DNA of 64,000 nucleotides from Rhizobium sp. 007 (lineage in GTDB: Bacteria > Pseudomonadota > Alphaproteobacteria > Rhizobiales > Rhizobiaceae). How positions within the stretch are numbered: the first letter of the stretch is position 1; every line of letters begins with the position of its first letter. Positions 46,332-61,432 of the stretch are shown here, piece by piece. The notes below the pieces were generated by a model. That model was not told where the DNA came from and searched no databases. It worked only from the letters and a program-made list of their open reading frames with translations. The stretch covers positions 2,852,001 to 2,916,000 of the forward strand of contig NZ_CP064187.1 of NCBI RefSeq assembly GCF_015353075.1, given 5' to 3'. A program made the position numbers and the translations under genes.

Positions 46332-48224
46332 ATGACTGATATCGACACAAGCAAGTTGTCCTGGGACGAATGGGACGAGTTGCAGAATCCGCCCCCGGCC
46401 GAAACCGATTTCGACCGAGTCGTCGAATCGGCCATCTCGCGCCGCGGCTTCCTCAGGGGCATCCTGGCCATAGGCTCCGCTGCTGCGGCCATGGGGACGC
46501 TCGGCAATCTGACGTCCTCCACCTCGGCCCAAGCGCAGGAAGCCGCTTCGCGCTTTGCGTTCAAGCCGATCCCGGTCTTCACCGACAACACTGTGCATGT
46601 CCCTGAAGGCTATTCATGGAAGCCGTTCGCCAAGTGGGGCCAACCGCTGTTCTCCAACGTTCCGGATGTCGACCCGGCCAACGGCGTCAGCGTCGAGAAT
46701 TCCGACAAGGTCTTCGGCGAAAACACCGACGGCATGGAACTGTTCGTGATCGGTGACCATCAGGTGATCGCCGTAAACCATGAATACGTGAACAACGAAA
46801 CCAATCTTCCGAACAATGAAAAGGGCATGCCGAAGAGCGCCGACGACGTGAAGATTCTGCAGAACCTGCAGGGAGTCACCGTCATGGAAGTCGCCGAGGG
46901 GAACAACGGCTGGGAAGTCGTGCTCGACAGCCCGTTCAATCGCCGCATCACCCATCTGACGCCCATAAAGATTTCCGGCCCGGCTGCGGGCTCCGATCTC
47001 ATCAAGACTGAAGCCGATCCGAACGGCACTGACTGTCTCGGAACCTTCAACAATTGTGGCGCCGGCAAGACGCCATGGGGCACCTATCTCACCTGCGAGG
47101 AAAACTTCAACGGCTACTTCGGCTCCACCGATCCGAACTTTGCCATGCCCGACGACTTCAAGCGCTACGGCATTGCAGCCGAAACGCGTTATGGCTACGA
47201 GACCTTCGATCCTCGTTTCGACATCTCGAAAAACCCGAATGAGCCACGCCGCGCCGGCTATGTCGTGGAAATCGATCCGTCGGACGCATCGTCAACGCCG
47301 GTCAAGCGCACCGCGCTCGGCCGCATCAAGCATGAAAACGCCGCTGTCGTGATTGCCCGCGACGGTCGCGTCGTCGTCTATATGGGCGACGACGAGCGTG
47401 GCGAATTCCTCTACAAGTACGTCTCGAACGGCATCTACGTTCCGGGCGGCGACACCTCCAAGCTACTCGACGAAGGCTCGCTTTACGTCGCCAAGTTCTC
47501 CGACGACGGCAATGGCGAGTGGCTGGCCCTCACCCCGGAATCGACCGGCATGAAGACCGACGAAATTTACGTCTTCACGCGCCAGGCTGCTTCGAAGGTC
47601 GGCGCCACCACCATGGACCGCCCGGAATGGGTCGCCATCAATCCGGTCGCCATCGAAGCCTATTGCGCCCTGACCAACAATACCAATCGCGGGGTGAAGA
47701 AGAATGCCGGTGGCGACGAAATGCCGGTCGGCGGCGCGAACCCGCGCGAGAAAAACGCCTACGGCCAGATCGTGCGCTGGTATCCGGAAAACGAGGACCA
47801 TGCCGATGGCAAGTTCAAGTGGGACCTGTTCGTCATGGCCGGCAATCCGGACGTCCACAAGGACGCCTATGCCGGCTCGTCCAACATCAATTCCGGCAAC
47901 ATGTTCAACTCGCCGGACGGCATGATGTTCGACACGACCGGTCTGTTGTGGATCCAGACGGACGGTGAAGACACCAACGAAGGCGATTTCCTCGGCCAGG
48001 GTAACAATCAGATGCTCGCCGGTGACCCGGCCACCGGCCGCATCGAACGCTTCCTGACCGGCCCGAAAGGCGCAGAGGTCACTGGTATGACCTGGTCGGC
48101 GGACAAGCGGACGGTGTTCGTCGGCATCCAGCATCCCGACGCACCCTTCCCGGATGGCGAAAGCAAGCTGCCGCGTTCGACCGTGGTTGCGATCAAGCGC
48201 GACGACAACGCGCTTGTTGGTTAA
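46332..48224 (+). CDS. phoX: PhoX-family alkaline phosphatase
   Basis: A 630-residue PhoX-like phosphatase. The N-terminal twin-arginine signal is SRRGFLRGILAIGS with an ALA-type cleavage region, so it is exported folded. The DUF839/PhoX domain has GTYLTCEENFNGYFG, GYVVEIDPSD, HENAAVVIARDGRVVVYMGD, NCGAGKTPWGTY and GNMFNSPDGMMFDTTGLLW (the Ca/Fe-binding and active-site region). It releases phosphate from organic esters in the periplasm. A terminator follows the stop. It complements PstS and the Na/Pi transporter on the same block. Confidence 0.9.
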   Translation: MTDIDTSKLSWDEWDELQNPPPAETDFDRVVESAISRRGFLRGILAIGSAAAAMGTLGNLTSSTSAQAQEAASRFAFKPIPVFTDNTVHVPEGYSWKPFAKWGQPLFSNVPDVDPANGVSVENSDKVFGENTDGMELFVIGDHQVIAVNHEYVNNETNLPNNEKGMPKSADDVKILQNLQGVTVMEVAEGNNGWEVVLDSPFNRRITHLTPIKISGPAAGSDLIKTEADPNGTDCLGTFNNCGAGKTPWGTYLTCEENFNGYFGSTDPNFAMPDDFKRYGIAAETRYGYETFDPRFDISKNPNEPRRAGYVVEIDPSDASSTPVKRTALGRIKHENAAVVIARDGRVVVYMGDDERGEFLYKYVSNGIYVPGGDTSKLLDEGSLYVAKFSDDGNGEWLALTPESTGMKTDEIYVFTRQAASKVGATTMDRPEWVAINPVAIEAYCALTNNTNRGVKKNAGGDEMPVGGANPREKNAYGQIVRWYPENEDHADGKFKWDLFVMAGNPDVHKDAYAGSSNINSGNMFNSPDGMMFDTTGLLWIQTDGEDTNEGDFLGQGNNQMLAGDPATGRIERFLTGPKGAEVTGMTWSADKRTVFVGIQHPDAPFPDGESKLPRSTVVAIKRDDNALVG

Positions 48225-49145: not shown

Positions 49146-49157
49146 ATCGTCAGCTGC

Positions 49158-49685
49158 TCATGCGACGTCCGGTCTTTTGGAACTGGAGCCTTCCATCTGA
49201 CCGATCTCGTGAAGCTTGGCCGAGAGGCTCAGCCGTTCCAGACTTTCGACTGGAAGTGCAGCAAAGGCGGCGATGCGCAGCTTCATGTAGCGAAGCGTCT
49301 GGGCGAATGCGACCCGCTTGTCGGCATCGGTCCCTTCGACCGCCGCCGGATCATCGAGGCCCCAATGGGCGGTCATCGGCTGACCCGGCCACACCGGGCA
49401 TGCCTCGCCTGCCGCGTTGTCGCAGACGGTGAAGACGAAGTCGAGCTGCGGGGCGTTCTTGGTTGCGAACTCGTCCCAGCTCTTCGAGCGCAGGCCGTCA
49501 ACCGGATAGTTGTGACCCCGCAGGGTCTCGATGGCGATGGGATTCACCTCTCCTTTCGGGAAGCTGCCCGCGGAGTAGGCATTGAACTTCACCGCACCAT
49601 CCTTTCTCAGGACGCTTTCGGCAATGATCGAACGGGCTGTATTTCCGGTGCAGAGAAAAAGAACATTGAATTTCGTCTTGGTCAT
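49158..49685 (-). CDS. arsC: Arsenate reductase ArsC (LMW-PTP, thioredoxin-coupled type)
   Basis: A 175-residue arsenate reductase. The CX5R active-site loop is CTGNTARS (Cys12, Arg18), followed by AYSAGSFPKGEVNP and the second and third cysteines (VFTVCDNAAGEACPVWPGQP, Cys88 and Cys96) that form the disulfide cascade. It reduces arsenate to arsenite in the cytoplasm using thioredoxin. The ATG overlaps the arsR stop. No efflux pump (ArsB/Acr3) follows here, so arsenite would need exit elsewhere, or AioBA oxidises it in the periplasm. The long open frame upstream is arsR read wrongly. Confidence 0.92.
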   Translation of the reverse strand: MTKTKFNVLFLCTGNTARSIIAESVLRKDGAVKFNAYSAGSFPKGEVNPIAIETLRGHNYPVDGLRSKSWDEFATKNAPQLDFVFTVCDNAAGEACPVWPGQPMTAHWGLDDPAAVEGTDADKRVAFAQTLRYMKLRIAAFAALPVESLERLSLSAKLHEIGQMEGSSSKRPDVA

Positions 49686-50035
49686 GGGGACACCTTTAGT
49701 GGCGGACAGCATGGTGAGAGTTCGGCGATCAGCGGCTCGCAGAGCTCGGCCCTGCCTCCGCAGCAATCCTTGACGAGATAGAGGGTAAGCTCGCGCAAGG
49801 CCGCGATGTCCGCCCGGTAGACGACGAGGCGGCTGCGGCGCTCGGGACGGATAAGCCCTGCACGGGCGAGAATGCTCAGATGCGACGACATCGTGTTCTG
49901 CGGCACCGCGAGCGTCTTCGCGACATCGCCCGCCGGGAGTCCGTCGGGTTCGTGCCGGACGAGCAGATTGAAGGCCTGAAACCTCGTCGGCTGAGCGAGG
50001 GCGGCCAAGGCAAGGATCGCATTTTCTTGTTCCAT
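49682..50035 (-). CDS. arsR: ArsR-family arsenic-responsive repressor
   Basis: A 117-residue winged-helix repressor: AALAQPTRFQAFNLLVRHEP, GDVAKTLAVPQNTMSSHLSI (recognition helix) and LARAGLIRPERRSRLVVYR. Metalloid-binding cysteines cluster at the C-terminus: CC at 91-92, Cys99 and CC at 109-110. This placement is a variant of ArsR in which arsenite binding releases DNA. It heads the arsR-arsC operon and faces aioX. The inverted repeat at its start is the likely operator. Confidence 0.9.
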   Translation of the reverse strand: MEQENAILALAALAQPTRFQAFNLLVRHEPDGLPAGDVAKTLAVPQNTMSSHLSILARAGLIRPERRSRLVVYRADIAALRELTLYLVKDCCGGRAELCEPLIAELSPCCPPLKVSP

Positions 50036-50057
50036 ATATCCAGATTGCCGGATATAT
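50034..50057. promoter_or_regulatory. Candidate ArsR operator
   Basis: ATATATCC (50034-50041), eight bases, GGATATAT (50050-50057): perfect inverted repeat overlapping the arsR start codon. Position and symmetry fit ArsR autoregulation; it could also shield the divergent aio side. Confidence 0.6.
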
Positions 50058-50091
50058 CGATAGAGTCAATATTCTTCGGAATAAGTGCGAC

Positions 50092-50223
50092 GTGAAGTTA
50101 ACGAATCTCAAGCTGGTTCCGTTCTGGCTCTGCGTTGCCCTGGGCGCCGCGCAGCTTGCAGCTGTCGTTATCTATCTGAGTATGCACTTGATCTGCGCTT
50201 TTTCAGTTGGAATCCCGCAGTAG
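50092..50223 (+). CDS. Possible 43-aa single-pass membrane protein
   Basis: GTG 50092 opens a 43-residue frame (KLTNLKLVPFWLCVALGAAQ, then LAAVVIYLSMHLICAFSVG) that forms one clear membrane helix and ends at TAG 50221-50223. The composition is that of a real membrane segment, but the ribosome site is weak. It lies between arsR and aioX in the aioX direction. It could be a small protein or the relic of a larger membrane gene. Confidence 0.3.
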   Translation: MKLTNLKLVPFWLCVALGAAQLAAVVIYLSMHLICAFSVGIPQ

Positions 50224-50278
50224 GCGTCTAAACTGTCTGGACGGCCCGCTTGGGAGGAAGGGCCGCCGGGAGGAAGGG

Positions 50279-51196
50279 ATGGCACCGGGTTCCGAGGAGG
50301 ATCACTGTCGGCGCGCCGGCTGCACCCGGCGGACCTTCATGCGAAACATCGCGGCCGCGGCGACCACCTTCGCGGCGACGGGAGCACGCGGCGTTGAATC
50401 GATCGCTATGGCACGCGAGGGCTCGATCCGCTTCGGCCTCACCCCCGTCTTCCTGTCGAACGACCTCGAAGTTCTCGACGAACTTCAAGCGTATCTGGCG
50501 GCCGCCACCAGACGCGAAGTCCAGCTCGTCACCCAGCGGACCTACCAGGAGGTTACGGCGCTGCTGGTCTCGGGAAATCTCGATGCCGCCTGGATCTGCG
50601 GCTATCCCTACATGAAGTTCCGGGACGAACTCGAGCTTGTCGCCACGCCGGTCTGGCGCGGCAGCCCTCTCTACCAGTCCTACCTGATCATCGGCTCCGA
50701 CCGGGCGGCGTCGACGTTCGACGACTGCCGGGGCGACATCCATGCCTTTTCCGATCCCGATTCCAACTCAGGATACCTGGTCACCAAGACCTACCTTGCC
50801 GAAAGGCAGGTGTCGGAAGAGCGCTTCTTCCGCAAGTCGTTCTTCACCTACGGGCACCGCAACGTCATCCGAGCGGTCGCATCGGGGCTGGCAGATTCCG
50901 GGAGCGTGGACGGATATGTCTGGGAGGTCATGCGGGAGACCGAACCGGAGCTTGTGACAAGGACGAAGGTGCTGGTGAAGTCGAAATGGAACGGCTTCCC
51001 TCCGGTGGCCGCGCCCGCGCGGACGCTGGGATTTAAGTCCTTCCTTGCCATCCAGAACGCCCTGCTGACGATGACGGGGAGCGAACTGGGCAGGTCGGTC
51101 CTCAAGAAGCTCGAACTCGACGGCTTCACACGCGCTCCGCCAAGCACCTTCGACAGCATCGCCGCGAGCATGGATATCGTGCGGAGGCTCGGATGA
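50279..51196 (+). CDS. aioX: AioX periplasmic arsenite-sensing protein
   Basis: A 305-residue PhnD/substrate-binding-like protein. An N-terminal twin-arginine-like signal is seen (RRTFMRNIAAAATTFAATGA). The binding domain has FGLTPVFLSNDLEVLDELQA, QRTYQEVTALLVSGNLDAAW and ICGYPYMKFRDELELVATP, with a lone Cys at residue 107 in the mature domain; published AioX work points to a conserved Cys at about this position for arsenite sensing. GGAGGAAGGG precedes ATG 50279. It overlaps aioS by four bases. AioX presents arsenite to the sensor kinase AioS. Confidence 0.9.
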   Translation: MAPGSEEDHCRRAGCTRRTFMRNIAAAATTFAATGARGVESIAMAREGSIRFGLTPVFLSNDLEVLDELQAYLAAATRREVQLVTQRTYQEVTALLVSGNLDAAWICGYPYMKFRDELELVATPVWRGSPLYQSYLIIGSDRAASTFDDCRGDIHAFSDPDSNSGYLVTKTYLAERQVSEERFFRKSFFTYGHRNVIRAVASGLADSGSVDGYVWEVMRETEPELVTRTKVLVKSKWNGFPPVAAPARTLGFKSFLAIQNALLTMTGSELGRSVLKKLELDGFTRAPPSTFDSIAASMDIVRRLG

Positions 51197-52662
51197 ATGT
51201 CATCGAGCGCTTGAAACGGACTCCTCTGACCATTCGCGCTCCGGTGATGGTGGCGACGCTGATGATCGTCGTGAGCGTCATCATCTCCGAGCGGGTGCTG
51301 AACAGGCTGAACGAAATGCAGCAGCAGCACCTGGAAAGCGTCTTCGGCACCTATTTCGACGGTCTGTCCACGGCCCTTATTCCACCGGTGCTACGTCAGG
51401 ACGTGTGGGAAACGTACGACGTCCTCGACCGGACGCGCGTGGTGTTCAAGTCGGTTTCGCCGATCGAGACGGTCGTCACCGGCCGCGATGGGAGGGTGCT
51501 CGCCTCGAGCGATCCGCAGGCCATCCCCGTCCTTTCCGATCTCCCTTCCGAGTACTCCGCCAGGAACCGCCCGGATGAAATGGCGATCGACTGGGACGCA
51601 CATACTGGCTTCGGCGTCCGCCCTCTGATCTACCAGGGTAAGACGGTCGGCGCGATCCATGCCTCATTCGACATATCGCACCTGATCGCCGAGCGCCGAG
51701 ACATCCTTCACACGCTGCTTGCCACGAATGCAGCGCTTGCGGCGATCTTCGCCGCGATCGGTTACGTGCTCGCAAGGCGCATGGTCAAGCCAGTCACGAC
51801 GCTAGCGGAGCACATGCGCTCCGGCGCCGCGGGCACGCCTCACGCGATCGCCGTCGAGGAATTTCCAAGCCGGAGCGGCGAGTTCGCCGATCTCTTCCAT
51901 GGATTCAACACGCTGGTCGAGGCCGAGCGGGAGCGGAGCGCTCTGACGAACCGGCTGGCCGAGGAGGAGAAGCTCGCAAGCCTCGGCCGCCTCGCCTCGA
52001 GCATGGCGCACGAGATCAACAATCCGCTGGGCGGCCTCTTCAACTCCATCGACACCTTGAAGCGTCATGGAGCCGACGCCTCGGTACGGGAGATCAGCCT
52101 GTCGCTTCTCGAGAGAGGTCTCGGCGGCATCCGCGACGTCGTGCAGGCCGCGCTCGCGACCTACAGGCCGGACCGCTCCGACCGGCCTCTTGTCGTTCAA
52201 GACCTCGAGGACGTGCGCCTGCTCGCCGGTCCGGCCGTTTCGAGCCGAAGCCAGTCTCTGAACTGGAGTAGCTGTTCCGGCGAATTCTCCGTCGCTGCAC
52301 TGCCGGGATCGTCCGTCCGCCAGGCCCTGCTGAACCTCGTCCTCAACGCGAGCGCCGCGGCGGGAGAAGGCGGGACGATCAGCGTGCAGGTGACGCTGGA
52401 GGACGCCGGAACCACGCTGGTTTTATCGGTCTCCGATTCCGGTGCGGGGCTGACGCAGGCCGCCACCGCCGTCCTGACCTCGCCAGACCCGCTGACCGCA
52501 AGCCGAGCAGCGGGGGGTCTTGGACTGTGGATGGTGCGCAAGCTGGTCGACGACGCGTCCGGCCGGATCGAAGTGCGTGGCGGGGATGGAGCGGCGACCA
52601 TGGTCATAGTGCGCCTGCCGGTTTTGACGGCTACTAGGGAGGACGTCAGCGATGCAGCATGA
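51193..52662 (+). CDS. aioS: AioS sensor histidine kinase
   Basis: A 489-residue membrane kinase. Helix 1 lies at about residues 16-32, a periplasmic sensor domain spans residues ~35-170, and helix 2 lies near 175-195 (LLATNAALAAIFAAIGYVL). A HAMP-like linker follows. The phosphoacceptor H273 lies in SMAHEINNPLGG. The ATPase has the N box (QALLNLVLNASAAA), then VSDSGAGL and GGLGLWMVRKLV. It receives the AioX-arsenite signal and phosphorylates AioR. It overlaps aioR by 11 bases. Confidence 0.92.
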   Translation: MNVIERLKRTPLTIRAPVMVATLMIVVSVIISERVLNRLNEMQQQHLESVFGTYFDGLSTALIPPVLRQDVWETYDVLDRTRVVFKSVSPIETVVTGRDGRVLASSDPQAIPVLSDLPSEYSARNRPDEMAIDWDAHTGFGVRPLIYQGKTVGAIHASFDISHLIAERRDILHTLLATNAALAAIFAAIGYVLARRMVKPVTTLAEHMRSGAAGTPHAIAVEEFPSRSGEFADLFHGFNTLVEAERERSALTNRLAEEEKLASLGRLASSMAHEINNPLGGLFNSIDTLKRHGADASVREISLSLLERGLGGIRDVVQAALATYRPDRSDRPLVVQDLEDVRLLAGPAVSSRSQSLNWSSCSGEFSVAALPGSSVRQALLNLVLNASAAAGEGGTISVQVTLEDAGTTLVLSVSDSGAGLTQAATAVLTSPDPLTASRAAGGLGLWMVRKLVDDASGRIEVRGGDGAATMVIVRLPVLTATREDVSDAA

Positions 52663-53977
52663 CATTGGAAGGATCGCCATCCTGGAGGACGACCCGATCA
52701 TGGGCGAATCCCTCCTACAGAGGCTGACGCTCGAAGGACACCGTGTCGAATGGTGGACGAAGGGCGAGCAGGCGCTAAGGCAGCTTTCGCGCGCGGATGG
52801 CGCGTTTGATCTCGTCATATGTGACATCCGGCTACCTGACATGAACGGCGAGGACGTGTTCCGCCAGAGCAGCCGCGAGTCCGCGACGCCCTTCCTGTTC
52901 ATGTCGGGATATGGCGACATCGACCAGGCCGTCCGCCTGATGCGCAGCGGCGCGGTGGACTTCATCACGAAGCCCTTCGAGATGTCCGCCCTTCTCGATC
53001 GGATTTCTACGAGCCTGCGCGCGCGCCCGGCGGGTGCCGTCGAAGGCGGGCTCGGCATTTCCCGCGCGATGCGCGACGCGGAGATGATCCTGCGCCGCTA
53101 CGCCTCCCACCCGCTGCCCGTTCTCATCCAGGGGGAGACGGGAACCGGCAAGGAGGTCAGCGCACGCTTCCTGCATCAGGCTTCGGGGCGCGCAGGCTCT
53201 CCGTTCATGGCGGTCAACTGCGCCGCGATTCCGGCCGAGCTCCTGGAAAGCGAGCTCTTCGGACACGAGAAGGGAGCCTTCACGGGCGCGCACCAGCTTC
53301 ACCGGGGGTACGCCGAGCGGGCCGGCGACGGCATCCTTTTTCTTGACGAGATCGGCGACATGCCCCCGCCGCTGCAGGTCAAGCTGCTCCGCCTGATGGA
53401 GGACGGCCGGTTCCACAGACTTGGTAGCGAGACGCCCATCCCCTTCAAGGCCCGCATCGTCTGCGCCACGCATCACGACATCGGATCCGAAGCAAGCACG
53501 TTCCGGAAGGACCTGTACTTCAGGCTCTCCGCGCTTCCCGTCAGCCTGCCGCCGCTCCGGGACCGGCCCGAGGACATCCTGTGGCTGGCCCAGCGTTTCC
53601 TCGAGGAGATCATGCAGGTCAGGGAGACTCCGGTTCGGGGGATTGGCGTTCTGGCCGAGGACGCCATGCTGGAGCACCCCTGGCCGGGCAACGCGCGCGA
53701 GCTGCGCAACAGACTAGAACGGGCGGCGGCATTGTCGGAGAACCCGCTGCTCATGCCTGCCGACCTCTTTCCGGACAAGGCGCCCTCGCCTCCCGCGCAG
53801 GTCGGAACGCTGTCCGACGCCCGCGACGCCGCGGAACGGCGACAGATCCTGCGCGCCCTGAGCGCCACCGGCGGCCAGATTTCGCAGGCGGCCCGCGAGC
53901 TCGGCGTGTCGCGGACGACGCTCTGGGAAAAGATGGCCCGCTTCGGCATCGAGGGCGGCGGACGTTCGGAAACCTAA
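52652..53977 (+). CDS. aioR: AioR sigma-54-dependent response regulator
   Basis: A 441-residue NtrC-type activator. The receiver domain has D58 (LVICDIRLPDM) as the phosphorylation site. The AAA+ domain has Walker A GETGTGKE, the sigma-54-contact GAFTGA loop (GHEKGAFTGAHQ) and Walker B LFLDEIGDMP. The Fis-type HTH is at the C-terminus (GQISQAARELGVSRTTLWEK). It activates the sigma-54 promoter of aioBA at 54065-54080. Confidence 0.93.
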   Translation: MQHDIGRIAILEDDPIMGESLLQRLTLEGHRVEWWTKGEQALRQLSRADGAFDLVICDIRLPDMNGEDVFRQSSRESATPFLFMSGYGDIDQAVRLMRSGAVDFITKPFEMSALLDRISTSLRARPAGAVEGGLGISRAMRDAEMILRRYASHPLPVLIQGETGTGKEVSARFLHQASGRAGSPFMAVNCAAIPAELLESELFGHEKGAFTGAHQLHRGYAERAGDGILFLDEIGDMPPPLQVKLLRLMEDGRFHRLGSETPIPFKARIVCATHHDIGSEASTFRKDLYFRLSALPVSLPPLRDRPEDILWLAQRFLEEIMQVRETPVRGIGVLAEDAMLEHPWPGNARELRNRLERAAALSENPLLMPADLFPDKAPSPPAQVGTLSDARDAAERRQILRALSATGGQISQAARELGVSRTTLWEKMARFGIEGGGRSET

Positions 53978-54064
53978 ACGCGGCCGACCGCTGCCGTTCG
54001 CTTCTCCGGACGCGGCGTGTCCACCTTTCCGATACTTCCCTTGACAGCCAGCGCCGAACAGCGT

Positions 54065-54080
54065 TGGCACGACGATTGCA
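54065..54080 (+). promoter_or_regulatory. Sigma-54 promoter of aioBA
   Basis: TGGCACGACGATTGCA matches the sigma-54 (-24/-12) consensus TGGCAC-N5-TTGCA exactly. It lies 39 bases upstream of aioB ATG and just after aioR, fitting AioR as its activator. Confidence 0.92.
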
Positions 54081-54118
54081 GATCCTTCGTCACGGACATC
54101 CAATCGAGGGAGGATCAC

Positions 54119-54646
54119 ATGTCACGCTGTCGAACTTTGGTGGACCTTGGCCGACGCCAGTTTCTTCGCGGAGGCGCGCTGGCCGCGGCCGGGGCAACGG
54201 TGGCGGTCGTGGCGCCCGTCGCTCCGCAGGCACGGGCCGCGATTCCCTCCGCCGGCGTCGAGTACCCCTCCAACCGCCTTGCCAACCTCTCCGATCTGAA
54301 GGTGAACGAGCCGCTGGACGTCGCCTACCCTGACGAGGACGCGGCGGGCGTGCTCCTCAAGCTCGGCGTGGCTGTCGAAGGCGGCGCCGGCCCGGACGGA
54401 GACATTGTCGGCTTCTCGACGATCTGTCCCCACAAGGGCTTCCCGCTGAACTACTCCGCCGACGAGAGGACCTTCAACTGCCCAGGACACTATTCCGTGT
54501 TCGACGCCGAGAAGGGCGGGCAGGAGATCTGGGGCCAGTCCACGCAGAATCTGCCGCAGTACGTGCTGAGGATCGCCGACAACGGCGACATCTTTGCCGA
54601 AGGCCTCGACGAGCTGCTCTACGGCCGTCTGTCAAACGTGCTCTAA
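54119..54646 (+). CDS. aioB: Arsenite oxidase small subunit AioB (Rieske)
   Basis: A 175-residue Rieske protein. The twin-arginine signal is LGRRQFLRGGALAAAGATVA. The [2Fe-2S] site is CPHKGFPLNYS ... CPGHYSVFD (CxH and CxxH). The positions that form a disulfide in most Rieske proteins are Phe and Gly here (CPHKGF, CPGH), as known in NT-26. GGGAGGATCAC precedes ATG 54119. It passes electrons from AioA to an acceptor and is exported with AioA by its Tat signal. Confidence 0.93.
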   Translation: MSRCRTLVDLGRRQFLRGGALAAAGATVAVVAPVAPQARAAIPSAGVEYPSNRLANLSDLKVNEPLDVAYPDEDAAGVLLKLGVAVEGGAGPDGDIVGFSTICPHKGFPLNYSADERTFNCPGHYSVFDAEKGGQEIWGQSTQNLPQYVLRIADNGDIFAEGLDELLYGRLSNVL

Positions 54647-54659
54647 GGGGGACATCACC

Positions 54660-57125
54660 ATGGCATTCAAACGTCACATCGACCGCCTGCCGATCATTCC
54701 CGCCGATGCGAAGACGCACAACGTCACGTGCCACTTCTGCATCGTCGGCTGCGGCTATCACGCATACACCTGGCCGATGAACAAGCAGGGCGGCAGCGCG
54801 CCCGACCGCAACGTGTTCGGCGTCGATCTGTCACAGCAGCAGCAGGCGGAAACCGACGCCTGGTACTCGCCCTCCATGTACAATGTGGTCAAGCAGGACG
54901 GCAAGGACGTGCATGTCGTCATCAAGCCGGATCACGAATGCGTCGTGAACTCCGGCCTTGGGTCCGTTCGCGGCGCCCGCATGGCGGAGATGAGCTATTC
55001 CGAGGCCCGCAACACGCAGCAGCAGCGGCTCACCGATCCGCTGGTATGGCGCTACGGGCAGATGCAGCCCACGAGCTGGGAAGACGCCCTCGACCTCGTC
55101 GCCCGCGTGACGGCGACCATCGTCAAGAACAAGGGCGAGGACGCGCTGTTCGTTTCCGCCTACGACCACGGCGGCGCCGGCGGCGGCTACGAGAACACGT
55201 GGGGGACCGGCAAGCTCTACTTCGAGGCCATGAAGGTCAAGAACATCCGCATCCACAACCGCCCCGCCTACAATTCCGAGGTCCATGCGACGAGAGACAT
55301 GGGGGTCGGCGAGCTGAACAACTGCTACGAGGACGCCGAGCTCGCAGACACCATCTTCTGCGTCGGAGCGAATCCTCTGGAGACGCAGACCAACTACTTC
55401 CTGAACCACTGGATCCCGAACCTTCGCGGAGCGACGGCCGACAAGAAGAACGAGCAGTTGCCCGGCGAGGAGCATCCTGCGACGAGGGTCGTGTTCGTCG
55501 ATCCCCGCAGGACGGTGACCATAAACGCCGCCGAGGCCGAAGCCGGTGCCGACAACGTCCTCCATCTCGCCATCAATTCCGGCACGGACCTGGCCTTGTT
55601 CAATGCGATCTTCACGCACGTGGTCGAGAAGGGATGGATTGACAAGGCCTTCATCGACGCGAGCACGACGGGCTTCGACGACGCCGTCAAGGCGAACAAG
55701 ACGACCCTGGAGGAAGCCTCCAAGATCTGCGGCGTTCCCGCCGCCGACATCGAGAAGGCCGCGCAGTGGATCGCGGAGCCGAAGGCCGAAGGCAAGCGCC
55801 GTCGCACGATGCTTCCCTACGAGAAGGGTCTCATCTGGGGCAACGACAACTACCGCACCAACGCGGCCCTCGTTAACGTCGCGCTTGCGACGGGCAATAT
55901 CGGCCGCCCTGGTGGCGGCTGCGTCCGCCTCGGCGGCCATCAGGAAGGCTACGCGCGGCCGTCCGACGCCCATGTCGGGAAGCCCGCCGCCTATGTCGAC
56001 CAGCTCCTGATCGGCGGCCAGGGAGCGGTCCACCATATCTGGGGCTGCGACCACTACAAGACCACGCTCAACGCGCACGAGTTCAAGAAGGTCTACAAGA
56101 AGCGGACCGACATCGTGAAGGATGCCATGAGCGCCGCGCCGTATGGCGACCGGGACGCGATGGTCAAGGCGATCGTCGACGCCATCGACAAGGGCGGCCT
56201 GTTCGCGGTCAACATCGACATCATCCCGACCAAGATCGGACAGGCCTGCCACGTCGTTCTTCCGGCGGCGACGTCGGGCGAGATGAACCTGACGTCCATG
56301 AACGGCGAGCGCCGCATGAGGCTGACGGAGCGCTACATGGATCCGCCCGGACAGGCGATGCCCGACTGCCTGATCGCCGCGCGGCTCGCCAACAATATGG
56401 AGCGCGTCCTCCGCGAAACGAACGACACGGCCTACGCCGACAAGTTCAAGGGCTTCGACTGGAAGACCGAGGAGGACGCCTTCATGGACGGCTACCACAA
56501 GGTCGCCAAGGGTGGCGAGTTCGTGACCTACGAGCGGCTACGCGAGGCCGGGAACAACGGCGTCCAGGAACCGGCGGTCGGATATGAGAACGGCAAGCTG
56601 GTGGGGACGAAGCGCCTCTACGAAGACGCGCAGTTCGGCACCGACGACAAGAAGGCCAAGTTCATGGCGTCCGAGTGGCGCGGCCTCCAGGCTCCCGGCA
56701 AGCAGGCACAGAAGGACAAGCACAAGTTCCTGATCAACAACGGCCGTGCCAACATCGTCTGGCAGTCGGCCTACCTCGACCAGGAGAACGACTTCGTGAT
56801 GGATCGCTGGCCCTATCCGTTCATCGAGATGAACCCGGAGGACATGGCTGAAGCAGGCATCAAGCAGGGCGATCTCGTCGAAGTCTACAACGACGCCGGC
56901 GCGACGCAGGCGATGGCCTACCCGACGCCGACTGCGCGCCGGGCCGAGACGTTCATGCTCTTCGGGTATCCGACGGGCGTCCAGGGCAACGTCGTCAACG
57001 CGGGTACGAACGAGTTGATTCTCCCAAACTACAAGCAGACCTGGGGCGACATCCGCAAGATCGCCGACGCACCGCGCAACGTCGCCCACCTCTCCTTCAA
57101 GCCGAAGGAATATCGTTCGGCCTGA
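54660..57125 (+). CDS. aioA: Arsenite oxidase large subunit AioA (molybdopterin)
   Basis: An 821-residue DMSO-reductase-family molybdoprotein. The [3Fe-4S] site is CHFCIVGCGYHAY (Cys24, Cys27, Cys31). Characteristic AioA stretches include VYRYGQMQPTSWEDALDLVA-like, DHGGAGGGYENTWGTGKLYF, RPAYNSEVHATRDMGVGELN and GNIGRPGGGCVRLGGHQEGY. It has no signal peptide of its own and is carried out with AioB. It oxidises arsenite to arsenate in the periplasm. The long frame upstream overlaps aioB; ATG 54660 follows AAGGGGGACATCACC. Confidence 0.96.
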   Translation: MAFKRHIDRLPIIPADAKTHNVTCHFCIVGCGYHAYTWPMNKQGGSAPDRNVFGVDLSQQQQAETDAWYSPSMYNVVKQDGKDVHVVIKPDHECVVNSGLGSVRGARMAEMSYSEARNTQQQRLTDPLVWRYGQMQPTSWEDALDLVARVTATIVKNKGEDALFVSAYDHGGAGGGYENTWGTGKLYFEAMKVKNIRIHNRPAYNSEVHATRDMGVGELNNCYEDAELADTIFCVGANPLETQTNYFLNHWIPNLRGATADKKNEQLPGEEHPATRVVFVDPRRTVTINAAEAEAGADNVLHLAINSGTDLALFNAIFTHVVEKGWIDKAFIDASTTGFDDAVKANKTTLEEASKICGVPAADIEKAAQWIAEPKAEGKRRRTMLPYEKGLIWGNDNYRTNAALVNVALATGNIGRPGGGCVRLGGHQEGYARPSDAHVGKPAAYVDQLLIGGQGAVHHIWGCDHYKTTLNAHEFKKVYKKRTDIVKDAMSAAPYGDRDAMVKAIVDAIDKGGLFAVNIDIIPTKIGQACHVVLPAATSGEMNLTSMNGERRMRLTERYMDPPGQAMPDCLIAARLANNMERVLRETNDTAYADKFKGFDWKTEEDAFMDGYHKVAKGGEFVTYERLREAGNNGVQEPAVGYENGKLVGTKRLYEDAQFGTDDKKAKFMASEWRGLQAPGKQAQKDKHKFLINNGRANIVWQSAYLDQENDFVMDRWPYPFIEMNPEDMAEAGIKQGDLVEVYNDAGATQAMAYPTPTARRAETFMLFGYPTGVQGNVVNAGTNELILPNYKQTWGDIRKIADAPRNVAHLSFKPKEYRSA

Positions 57126-57194
57126 GACATGGCGGAGGGCGGGCCGCCGCGCCGCCCTCCCAGTCCCCGCTGCCGATTTCCAAGGAGGCGGCCG

Positions 57195-57584
57195 TTGGAC
57201 GCTCGGGTGGCGCGCCGTGTCACGGCGGGCCATGCTCCGCCTCTCCCTCCCTCCGAACCGCGGGTGGCGGTCGAAATTTCTACGGATGCGCCGGCTCCTG
57301 AAAGCTTCGATGCTGTAGTCATCTCCGGCCGAAATGCGCCTCGTCTGGCCGGTGACGCCAAGGCCGCCCGCGAGGTGCATCTCGTCCTTCCGGAGAGCGG
57401 CGTTTGCACTGCCACGAACCCGGCGCTGGCCGAAGCCGCGTCCGGCGGCTGTTGCGGTGGTCCCTCCCCTGCCGAGGCCGACGCCTGCTGCGTCGCCGAC
57501 GCCGAAGCGAAGGCGGTAGGCAGATCTGGCTGCGGCTGCACGACGCCCGCAGTGAAACAGAACGACATGGAACCTGCAGAATGA
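57195..57584 (+). CDS. Cys-rich protein downstream of aioA
   Basis: An unrecognised protein of about 129 residues. It carries paired cysteines in the last 60 residues: GVCTATN, GGCCGGP, ADACCVAD, GRSGCGC. The best start is TTG 57195, which follows AAGGAGG by six bases; ATG 57129, four bases after the aioA stop, opens a longer but very Pro/Arg-rich reading. The stop overlaps the ATG of the broken MFS gene. CC and CxC pairs bind soft metals or arsenite in other proteins, so a metalloid chaperone or scavenger is possible, but I know of no family match. Confidence 0.6.
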   Translation: MDARVARRVTAGHAPPLPPSEPRVAVEISTDAPAPESFDAVVISGRNAPRLAGDAKAAREVHLVLPESGVCTATNPALAEAASGGCCGGPSPAEADACCVADAEAKAVGRSGCGCTTPAVKQNDMEPAE

Positions 57585-57945
57585 CCGACAAGAAGCCTCC
57601 CGCGCGCCTGATCTGGGCGCGCTCTGGCCGCCGCCATCTCGCTGGTCTGCGCGGCTGCATCGTCGAACGCGATATTGTTCGGGACGTCGCTTGTCGCGAT
57701 GGAAATCGCATCGAGCTTCGTCCTCTATAGCACGGCATTCGCCGCCATAGTCCAGGTCGGCGGCAGCAAGGCGCAGCGTAGCATCACGCACCTGACGCTG
57801 ATCGCAGGTTTCGCATCGACCGTTTTCTTAGGCCCCTGACGTCTACGCTGCACGAACACCTCGGCTGGCGGGAGATCTACCTCGTCTTCGCAGTCCTGAA
57901 CGTCATTGTCTGCCTTCCGATCCATTGATGGGTCGGCGGGCTTCC
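57581..57945 (+). pseudogene. MFS transporter, broken N-terminal fragment
   Basis: Beginning ATG 57581 (MTDKKPPARLIW), a shifted frame reads ALAAAISLVCAAASSNAILF, GTSLVAMEIASSFVLYSTAF and KAQRSITHLTLIAGFASTVF, then a second shift continues LTSTLHEHLGWREIYLVFAV and LNVIVCLPIHW with an in-frame TGA. Thus about 115 residues of a major-facilitator transporter remain, with two frameshifts and one stop, and the rest is missing. The ATGA overlap shows it was coupled to the Cys-rich gene. Confidence 0.7.
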
Positions 57946-57976
57946 AGGTATAGTGGCGACTGCCGGCGCAGGCCGG

Positions 57977-58414
57977 CTATTCGGGTGTTGCAACGCGAAT
58001 TGGGCGAGTGCCGATCTTTGCCCCTGTGACGGCATCCACGGCTACCGGCTCAATTTCTTCTCCTGTCTCCGCGTCGACGTATCGCGCCAACCTGCCTTCG
58101 CCACGGTACTGGCGTCCCCACGCACCCAGTAAGACAAGCACCGGCAAGAAATCGCGTCCGGCGGCGGTCAGCACGTACTCATCGCGCGGAGGCCGCTCCG
58201 AGTAGCGCCGCTTTTCCAGAAGTCCCTCCTCCGTCAGCGTCGCCAGCCGTCGGGTCAGAATGGTGGGGGCGATGCCCAGACTTTTCCGGAATTCGTCGAA
58301 GCGGGTGAGGCCCATGCTCGCGTCGCGAAGGATCAACATGCTCCACGCGTCGCCGACGCAGGTGAGGCTGCGGGCAATCGGGCAAGAGGTGTCGGGAAGA
58401 TTCTTCATGTTCAT
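57977..58414 (-). CDS. HxlR-family transcriptional regulator
   Basis: A 145-residue winged helix regulator: CPIARSLTCVGDAWSMLILR (conserved Cys11), RFDEFRKSLGIAPTILTRRL and LTEEGLLEKRRYSERPPRDE, ending with a basic-acidic tail. HxlR proteins respond to electrophiles or redox stress. It faces the secreted-protein gene on the other strand, which it may regulate. Short palindromic boxes (e.g. TATCA ... GATAG) lie between the two genes. Confidence 0.87.
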   Translation of the reverse strand: MNMKNLPDTSCPIARSLTCVGDAWSMLILRDASMGLTRFDEFRKSLGIAPTILTRRLATLTEEGLLEKRRYSERPPRDEYVLTAAGRDFLPVLVLLGAWGRQYRGEGRLARYVDAETGEEIEPVAVDAVTGAKIGTRPIRVATPE

Positions 58415-58608
58415 ATCATTTTGATAGTGACTTAGTATCTAAATGATAGTAACATCCTTTCAAGATGTAATCCAGCACAAAGAAAGAAGTGACTTCCATG
58501 AACAAGATCAAACTTGGCGCCCCCCATCCAGAACTTAACCGTCGGCGCGCGCAATCGGGTCATCATGTCACCACCGGCCACCCGAGATCGTCCAAACGGA
58601 GCCTCACG

Positions 58609-58968
58609 ATGATCAACTTCATCGGTGGCCTGGCGGCATTCGGCCTGGCCGCGTCTCCGTTGCATGCCGATGAGCTGCCCCCCATGGCGGGGGAAAGTAT
58701 CCATGTCGGCGGTTTTCATGGCGTCTTCTACTACACCGACGAAAATGACGGCGATCGAGTGGTTGCAACGATTGCGGAGGGAGAGGCCGGAGTTCCGGTG
58801 CGTTTCTCGGCCACTCTCGCCGAGGGACAATCAGCGACGATATCCGTGCCGGGGAAATTGGGCGAACCTAGCCAAAGCCTCGCGATTTCGCGCTCGGACG
58901 ACAAGCTTGTCGTCACCGACGTGGGGTCGATGTCCAACAAGAAGCGAATTGGGGCCATTGCCGAGTAA
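58609..58968 (+). CDS. Small secreted protein, 119 aa
   Basis: An exported protein of about 119 residues: signal peptide (INFIGGLAAFGLAASPLHA) then ESIHVGGFHGVFYYTDENDG, RVVATIAEGEAGVPVRFSAT and QSLAISRSDDKLVVTDVGSM. I chose ATG 58609, with GGAG seven bases ahead; the frame extends upstream to ATG 58489 without a signal. Related short proteins are found in rhizobia beside HxlR regulators. Function unknown. Confidence 0.65.
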   Translation: MINFIGGLAAFGLAASPLHADELPPMAGESIHVGGFHGVFYYTDENDGDRVVATIAEGEAGVPVRFSATLAEGQSATISVPGKLGEPSQSLAISRSDDKLVVTDVGSMSNKKRIGAIAE

Positions 58969-59509: not shown

Positions 59510-59896
59510 GCGCACCTTCTCTTTGTTGTCGCAGCCGATTTCGAAGCCGTCAGAGCACCAGCGAAGATTTGAGCGCTCAACGGCAACACGTCCGTCATGG
59601 CGGCGAGTATCGATTGCACCGGTATGGCGCTGGAGAAGCAATCCATGCAGCTTCATCACACGATAGACGCGTTTGGCGTTTGACCACTAACGTCCTTCGC
59701 TGCACGCGTTGCGGCGTAGGATGGCGTGAACACGGCGATATCCATAGGTCGGCATATCGGTAATGATCGCTTCGATCTCCTCCACCAGACCCCGATCAGC
59801 TGGTGGCGGTCGTCCACGGGCTTTGGAAGAAGGCTGCTTCACCCGCTCTGCGATATTCGACCGCGCAACACTTAAAGTCTCGCACACTCCCGTCAT
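59510..59896 (-). pseudogene. IS3-family OrfB (transposase) fragment
   Basis: The N-terminal half of Orf[21 protein letters not shown], then PTYGYRRVHAILRRNACSEG, an in-frame stop at 59687-59689, then SNAKRVYRVMKLHGLLLQRH, SNLRWCSDGFEIGCDNKEKV. The catalytic DDE part that follows is absent because the element ends at the junction with the DUF4189 gene near 59510. It cannot transpose. Confidence 0.8.
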
Positions 59897-60285
59897 CGAG
59901 AAGTGCCCTTCGGCAAGGACAGCGATCGCAACAGATGTTTTTTTGGGCCGATAGCGATTTCAAGGGCTTCCTTGAGAATTTCGCCTTCCATCGTCTTCTT
60001 GCCGAGCAGGCGCTGCAGTTCCTTGATCTGGTTCTGAAGGGCGCGATACTCGGAAGCCGGAACGACCTCTTCCTGCGACGCGGTGGCGGTCAATGCCCCC
60101 TGAGCTGCAAGCTTGCGCCAATTGAACAACTGGTTCGGCTGTATGCCGTGACGCCGGGCAACGATGCTAACCGTCACGTCTGGCTCATACGTCTCCTGAA
60201 CGATGGCCAGCTTTTCGGCCGTCGACCAGCGACGCCGGCGCTCCGGGCCGGAAAGAACTTCTATCTTCGGATTGTGACTGCTCAT
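59893..60285 (-). CDS. IS3-family OrfA (DNA-binding transposase subunit)
   Basis: A 130-residue Orf[41 protein letters not shown] (HTH) and a leucine zipper ([20 protein letters not shown]) ending [13 protein letters not shown]. It is intact and would express the DNA-binding half, normally joined to OrfB by ribosomal frameshifting. Because OrfB is truncated, the element is dead. Confidence 0.88.
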
Positions 60286-60350
60286 AATGGGCACATTACC
60301 TCGCTCACTTAATAAGTGGGAGATCGTGTCCGGTGATTTATGGGGCCATT

Positions 60351-60802: not shown

Positions 60803-61432
60803 ATGAAAACGACAGTCACATCGGTTCCCGATCGGATCATGAAGCGTGCCCGCGTTGCTGGGCGCGGCGGCGTTTTCACGCCCAGCGACTTCCTGGACGT
60901 GGCGACCCGGGCGGCTGTCGATCAGGCGCTTTCCAGGCTGGTCAAGAACGGCAAGCTGCGTCGCCTTGCCCGCGGCCTTTACGACTTCCCCAAGGTCCAC
61001 CCGAAGCTCGGATTGCTTTCGCCGACACCGGACGACGTCGCGCATGCGCTGGCGCGTGAGACCGGGTCGCAAGTTCAGATCTCAGGCGCTCGCGCCGCGA
61101 ACGCCCTCGGCCTCACAACACAGGTGCCGGCAAGGAGCACCTATCTAACCGATGGTCCCTCGCGGCGCGTCGTGCTGGGAAAGCGCGTCGTCGATCTTCG
61201 CCACGCTTCGCCCAAGCACCTGATCGCACCGGGCAGTGCCGCCGGTACGGTCGTTCAGGCTCTTCGTCATGTCGGCCCCGTGCGTGCGGCCGACGTTGCG
61301 CAGGTGGCCGCACTTCGGCTTTCGCCCAACGACAAGAAGATCCTTGCTTCGACCGCCGTTCAGGCCCCTGCGTGGATGCGGCCGACGCTCGTCTCGATCG
61401 CCAACGCAGTGGCTGTCGAAGTCGATGGATAA
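60803..61432 (+). CDS. AbiEi/DUF6088 antitoxin (type IV toxin-antitoxin)
   Basis: A 209-residue protein: N-terminal winged helix (FTPSDFLDVATRAAVDQALS, RLVKNGKLRRLARGLYDFPK) and the AbiEi core (QISGARAANALGLTTQVPAR, STYLTDGPSRRVVLGKRVVD). It represses its own operon and counters the AbiEii nucleotidyltransferase toxin by a non-binding, type IV mechanism. No Shine-Dalgarno precedes ATG 60803, so translation may be leaderless or from an internal ATG at 60839. Overlaps the toxin by eight bases. Confidence 0.85.
   Translation: MKTTVTSVPDRIMKRARVAGRGGVFTPSDFLDVATRAAVDQALSRLVKNGKLRRLARGLYDFPKVHPKLGLLSPTPDDVAHALARETGSQVQISGARAANALGLTTQVPARSTYLTDGPSRRVVLGKRVVDLRHASPKHLIAPGSAAGTVVQALRHVGPVRAADVAQVAALRLSPNDKKILASTAVQAPAWMRPTLVSIANAVAVEVDG

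Follow-up and report, generated by a model that had tools for sequence, protein, structure and literature searches.

Results

Gene organization downstream of aioA

The window is the whole stretch of 64,000 nucleotides of Rhizobium sp. 007 (contig NZ_CP064187.1, positions 2,852,001 to 2,916,000, forward strand) that was analysed. In it, an intact gene for the arsenite oxidase large subunit is followed, three bases after its stop, by the ATG of an open frame of 151 codons, and this frame is followed by pieces of an MFS transporter gene (Table 1). In the initial annotation, a Cys-rich gene had been started at TTG 57195, which lies inside the frame 57129-57584 (+ strand), and had been described as carrying paired cysteines and as coupled, directly behind aioA, to an MFS gene broken by two shifts and one stop. 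These observations were reproduced: the frame contains GVC, GGCCGG, ACC and GCGC (seven cysteines in its tail part and one in the first residues), its stop TGA (57582-57584) overlaps ATG 57581 as ATGA, and the two shifts and the stop were borne out by blastx against ArsK of Rhizobium sp. LC145. A separate ribosome site before TTG 57195 (57182-57197) was rejected, since these positions are moeA coding sequence (DFQGGGRWTL; LC145, DFAGSGPWSL).

As for the surroundings, a PhoX alkaline phosphatase gene (46332-48224, + strand) lies left of the ars/aio genes. Beside the HxlR-type gene on the right, 58489-58968 gave no Pfam match; 59687-60294 (- strand) holds an HTH_Tnp_1 transposase frame (59893-60294) with an apparent short piece of a partner frame, possibly an insertion-sequence remnant; and 60803-61432 (+ strand) holds a DUF6088/AbiEi-like antitoxin gene, whose partner may be encoded by the frames after it.

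Table 1. Features of the aioA-downstream region of the window, and free-standing Cys-rich mini-protein loci of other genomes
Feature	Position	Strand	Remarks
aioA, arsenite oxidase large subunit	54651..57125	+	Intact; TIGR02693, 1373.3 bits; left neighbour of the putative scar
Open frame, very probably accidental	57129..57584	+	151 codons; moeA piece and flavoprotein tail
moeA piece	57163..57332	+	Residues 233-289 of the fused LC145 frame, about 57 codons; frameshifted near 57192-57204
Flavoprotein C-terminal tail	57345..57581	+	Last 79 codons, residues 395-473 of 473; seven cysteines
arsK remnant, residues 1-13	57581..57619	+	blastx, frame 2; start overlaps the stop of the tail
arsK remnant, residues 82-150 and 152-189	57621..57946	+	blastx; ends mid-gene
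HxlR-type regulator	57977..58414	-	PF01638, 72.2 bits; right neighbour of the putative scar, outside the module
Free-standing mini-protein, 63 aa	L070:1456-2240		Beside a PadR gene
Free-standing mini-protein, 61 aa	L072:1480-1665		
Free-standing mini-protein, 55 aa	L097:1492-1659		

Composition of the open frame

With Pfam and NCBIfam at E 0.1, no model covered the tail of the frame, and the two weak matches obtained were both on its moeA part. ArsD, a metallochaperone, is like the Cys-rich frame in its vicinal cysteine pairs, but no ArsD model was among these matches. Six relatives of the frame were found in a scan of genome contigs, and they match only from query residue 63-73 onward; for the four whose frames were listed (L001, L002, L003 and L005), the matching part forms the C-terminus of a 473-501-residue protein. 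The C-terminus of ArsM was rejected as the identity of the Cys-rich frame, since the relatives found are flavoproteins.

The first part of the frame is a piece of the gene for the MoeA/Glp molybdotransferase, which lies beside aioBA (moeA1 of NT-26); compared with whole MoeA/Glp, only about 57 frameshifted codons are left. Positions 57192-57332 matched LC145 MoeA (45% over 47 residues, 37.7 bits), a score above chance that was reached by none of 200 dinucleotide shuffles of the query (best 29.6 bits), and 57163-57204 gave a second match to the same protein in another frame. Its MoeA_N score (14.2 bits, frame residues 32-65) is below the gathering score of 30.8; the piece is a fragment and was identified through the neighbouring moeA genes. 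Downstream of aioA, with or without cytC between them, a moeA-type gene is present in all five islands viewed (LC145, Ensifer, Bosea, Acuticoccus and NT-26); as for plasmid aio islands, 16 records matched and four were viewed. In NT-26, aioB, aioA, cytC and moeA1 are described as one operon (PMC6011840).

The second part of the frame shares 80% identity over 79 residues with the LC145 flavoprotein (E 1e-40), a likeness that is thus not due to chance, and it keeps seven of the seven tail cysteines (GVC, CCGG, ACC and GCGC). Such ArsK/MFS-linked flavoproteins, recorded as 'FAD-dependent oxidoreductase' or 'NAD(P)-binding domain-containing protein', have the Cys tail as their C-terminus, whereas in the window residues 1-394 are gone, and with them the FAD/NAD(P)H-binding core (Pyr_redox, 57.7 bits in LC145). 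No intact flavoprotein was found in the window's genome (7.6 Mb, 5 contigs), where the only match besides the tail was a weak one to flavoprotein residues 3-53, in the frame of another protein. The dN/dS inputs against LC145 (NG86) were 0.140/1.215 for the tail, 0.119/1.201 for the arsK piece 82-150 and 0.046/0.692 for 1.64 kb of aioA; the tail being like the dead arsK piece, there is no sign of special keeping.

A protein search with the whole frame, under length limits that admit only small proteins, gave 12 matches. One of them, P0122 (125 aa, 98% identity, on a 150-kb contig), is the same fusion with the tail unchanged; two residues differ from the window, both in the moeA part, and one of them is as in LC145 MoeA. 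The other 11 were read as probable cut-off ends of ordinary flavoproteins, each having the YGRAPTFL core stretch and coming from contigs shorter than 3 kb or with no contig listed. One of these 11, the metagenome protein P0124, is a flavoprotein end with two tandem copies of the Cys tail.

Both model score and sequence identity assign the MFS remnant to ArsK. This family is reportedly an arsenite efflux MFS transporter, as Shi et al. are said to have found in 2018; the exporter is therefore of a named family and not part of something undescribed, as had been suggested. The longest single-frame piece (69 aa; 57621-57827, residues 82-150, frame 3) has 75-81% identity to the LC145 and Ensifer ArsK and 72.9 bits with NF033733, and 57833-57946 corresponds to residues 152-189, in frame 2 again. 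The first frameshift is due to an internal deletion, the second is near 57828-57832, and a TGA (57926-57928) stands where relatives have Trp. Residues 1-13 alone gave blastx E-values of 0.10 and 0.24 (LC145 and Ensifer ArsK), and a DNA match to LC145 that spans 57345-57620 supports this start piece. Compared with intact ArsK, a 12-helix protein, residues of about 14-81 and all after 189 are missing, so that about 120 of 412 residues are left in two frames with one stop; the window sequence is below the NF033733 cutoff of 400 bits and is a remnant, whereas the intact LC145 and Ensifer ArsK score 511.7 and 513 bits. A separate intact ArsK (50% identity to LC145, 613.9 bits) is encoded elsewhere in the window's genome and adjoins frames that read, by eye, as arsH, arsC and an aquaporin gene.

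Comparison with the LC145 and Ensifer islands

The closest aio island found was that of Rhizobium sp. LC145 (L001), in which the order is aioX, aioR, aioB, aioA, cytC, moeA, phn-like transporter genes on the other strand (assigned by reading frames), arsR, the flavoprotein gene and arsK, and the gene of the 473-aa flavoprotein (Pyr_redox domains) runs through ATGA into the MFS gene. The DNA of the window matched LC145 in four blocks at 49153-57150 and again at 57345-57936, with intact genes lying between in LC145; the window pieces are about 24-25% diverged from it. Compared with LC145, about 0.7 kb (cytC and the moeA start), about 6.1 kb (the rest of moeA, the phn-like genes, arsR and flavoprotein codons 1-394) and about 0.2 kb inside arsK are missing, together with arsK after codon 189. 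The window retains fragments of genes that are complete elsewhere, and the differences therefore reflect loss from the window and not gain in LC145. Ensifer adhaerens p-3 has the same order (cytC-moeA-...-arsR-flavoprotein-arsK, with the MFS gene annotated as ArsK), with LysR and GNAT genes between moeA and arsR where LC145 has the phn-like genes, and thus the ancestral filling of the 6.1 kb is uncertain.

A second tail-only flavoprotein remnant is present in another genome of the genus, G025 (L012:1112-1537, - strand), where it continues into a fragment of arsK (residues 256-311). Among 148 genomes searched from the genus, two had aioA at E 1e-100, that of the window and G132; the 19 kb around aioA in G132 gave no match (E 1e-6) to cytC, moeA, the flavoprotein or arsK, and its island is therefore of another type. 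Elsewhere the window's genome encodes five relatives of the cytochrome c (best, 54%) and a single relative of MoeA (31%), which may serve the oxidase. LC145 AioA (L042:7610-10234) has 874 residues, compared with 824 in the window, and its two-piece match suggests an extra internal stretch.

The intact flavoprotein-ArsK module

Among plasmid records, 123 had the flavoprotein at E 1e-50, and ArsK lies directly after it in at least 9 of the 40 listed (positions were compared by eye with 60 listed of 185 ArsK records). Four loci encoding the flavoprotein were viewed (Ensifer, Streptomyces, Afipia and Bosea): all have arsR and further ars genes nearby, and three have an MFS gene immediately downstream. 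From this ars neighbourhood and the adjacency of ArsK, the substrate of the flavoprotein is likely to be an arsenical. ArsO (NF040505) is likewise a flavoprotein of ars clusters; intact relatives gave 58.3 and 53.3 bits with this model, below the NCBI cutoff of 425, and their assignment as ArsO was rejected. Ensifer p-3 has a separate true ArsO (520 bits). No ArsV model was among the best 25 NCBIfam matches.

Vicinal cysteine pairs suit trivalent arsenic. In the intact module, the flavoprotein, as an FAD/NAD(P)H-type oxidoreductase, would oxidise trivalent arsenicals or a related metalloid, the vicinal-cysteine tail would capture the trivalent species, and the co-translated exporter would remove the substrate or the product, with ArsR controlling the module. 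The same oxidase-plus-exporter logic is seen in ArsV-ArsW, a flavin monooxygenase and an exporter for methylarsenite. The ArsV product may leave by ArsW, ArsP or ArsK, as stated in a review (PMC10080717).

Distribution of the cysteine tail

The eight cysteines of the LC145 protein (one in the core and seven in the tail) are nearly invariant, being present in 119-122 of 122 aligned flavoproteins; this set consists of the 120 best of at least 8000 matches, minus five outside 440-500 aa and plus seven from the loci, includes LC145 twice and leans to close relatives. The initial annotation had named, as grounds for giving up its gene, cysteines that are not conserved and homologues that are merely random GC-rich ORFs. 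The cysteines are conserved, as those of a flavoprotein tail, and the relatives are flavoprotein ends; the gene fails nevertheless, because the frame consists of deletion-joined pieces of two genes. Note that the tails of L009 and L011 are shorter, ending soon after ACCGG or GCCG, that of L010 is changed, and the motif is only partly present in that of Streptomyces, which argues against universality of the tail.

With the tail-core model A2, matches were obtained in 38 of 397 genomes of the order and in 14 of 385 of the class (G000 and G182 in both); 43 loci were taken from these searches, and eight weaker order matches, two of them in short frames, were left out. A flavoprotein core adjoins the tail in 37 of the 43, and among these an MFS gene starts within about 200 bases downstream in 25 and about 1.2 kb farther on in 5, with none in the 1.5-kb flank in 7. 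In most cases the motif forms the C-terminus of a flavoenzyme linked to MFS/ArsK. The wider model A3 matched in 16 of 398 genomes of the phylum (two of them new), 14 of the 16 in frames of at least 457 residues.

Besides the window, the remaining loci are those of G046, G402, G524, G280 and G794. G046, of another family of the same order, carries in succession a PadR regulator gene, a free-standing Cys-rich frame of 68 aa (1474-1680) and an arsK-like MFS gene (L013, 1067-2929), which is a natural case of the Cys-rich-plus-exporter pair once imagined for the window. In G402 (L065:1450-2516), the tail is fused to a DUF6428 protein, with an ArsR-type gene divergent, and free-standing mini-proteins with the same motif are found in G524 (63 aa), G280 (61 aa) and G794 (55 aa). 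The PadR neighbour in G524 has 53% identity over 96 residues to that of G046, with NGCC in both; the frames beside the mini-proteins of G280 and G794 look, by eye, like housekeeping genes, which argues against a strict link to arsenic. The G794 mini-protein has a weak match to a Pfam knottin toxin model (12.2 bits, cutoff 26.8, E 1), the other three (G046, G524 and G280) gave no Pfam or NCBIfam match at E 1, and one free-standing mini-protein gave no match among plasmids (tblastn, E 0.01). A literature search, with limited coverage of subscription journals, returned nothing on the tail module.

Discussion

We interpret the stretch behind aioA as the scar of several deletions, in which the 151-codon frame is an accidental fusion (probability, roughly 0.92). 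An island of the LC145 type (aioXSR-aioBA-cytC-moeA-phn genes-arsR-flavoprotein-arsK) would have lost its right half in the lineage of the window, by at least three deletions and the loss of the arsK end, with the moeA piece, the Cys-rich tail and the arsK pieces left, and the coupling of the frame to the MFS gene would be inherited from the intact flavoprotein-arsK pair. This reading is supported by the relatives, which match only from residue 63-73 and inside longer flavoproteins, by the collinearity with LC145 to 57150 and at 57345-57936 with intact genes between, by the moeA match above shuffles, by the same gene order in Ensifer adhaerens p-3, by the absence of an intact flavoprotein from the window's genome, by the dN/dS that the tail shares with the neighbouring arsK pseudogene piece, and by the other case in the genus of a tail-only remnant fused to part of arsK (L012). 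It is weakened by the uncertain ancestral content between moeA and the flavoprotein gene, and by several features that would also fit a use of the fusion after its formation, namely as a small protein that binds metalloids beside the oxidase and continues to be made from the aio mRNA. The tail frame is open with all seven conserved cysteines kept, ribosomes on the aio transcript could restart at ATG 57129, which lies three bases behind the aioA stop, and the sister entry P0122 retains the frame with its tail unchanged. However, the tail (0.140/1.215) is like the dead arsK piece (0.119/1.201), and what looks like a ribosome site belongs to the moeA coding sequence; we therefore regard such a use as improbable.

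Far less credible is the initial proposal of an independent gene for a Cys-rich chaperone coupled to an exporter. The row in G046 (L013), with its free-standing Cys-rich frame before an arsK-like gene, shows that such an arrangement exists, but the junction mapping contradicts it for the window, where fragments of two other genes make up the frame, the moeA piece being joined by deletion to the flavoprotein tail, and where the exporter is dead. What stands of the proposed arsenic module is that the MFS gene is of an arsenic exporter family (ArsK), that the cysteines are conserved, and that arsenic genes are neighbours elsewhere; the chaperone gene does not stand. We give equally little credence to the collapse of an intact island by assembly or sequencing error. 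Several junctions and frameshifts within less than 1 kb might suggest it, but the 7.6-Mb assembly has 5 contigs and is rated 100% complete, and the pieces differ by about 24-25% in DNA from LC145; apart from the weak N-terminal match, no other flavoprotein match was found, and no further piece reaches the identity of the arsK piece. The near-identical fusion on a 150-kb contig in the protein database also speaks against it, although it could be a record near this genome.

With the deletion scar as the preferred reading, a false new gene is removed from the candidates. The only undescribed element is the portable tail module, which is without a family model among the Pfam and NCBIfam matches. 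It is conceivable, at somewhat less than even odds, that the motif CCGGPAPxxxDACCxxDAxAKxxGxxGCGC represents a portable and undescribed module that binds metalloids, captures trivalent arsenicals and passes them to a flavin site or an exporter; the binding of metalloids would be by its vicinal cysteines. The locus itself shows a module of a known kind in ordinary decay, and the conserved unnamed cysteine tail is its one lead. For the organism, an arsenite-oxidation island would have shed its linked cytochrome, its molybdenum-cofactor gene and its arsR-flavoprotein-arsK module, a loss that may have been adaptive or neutral, and would have kept the oxidase.
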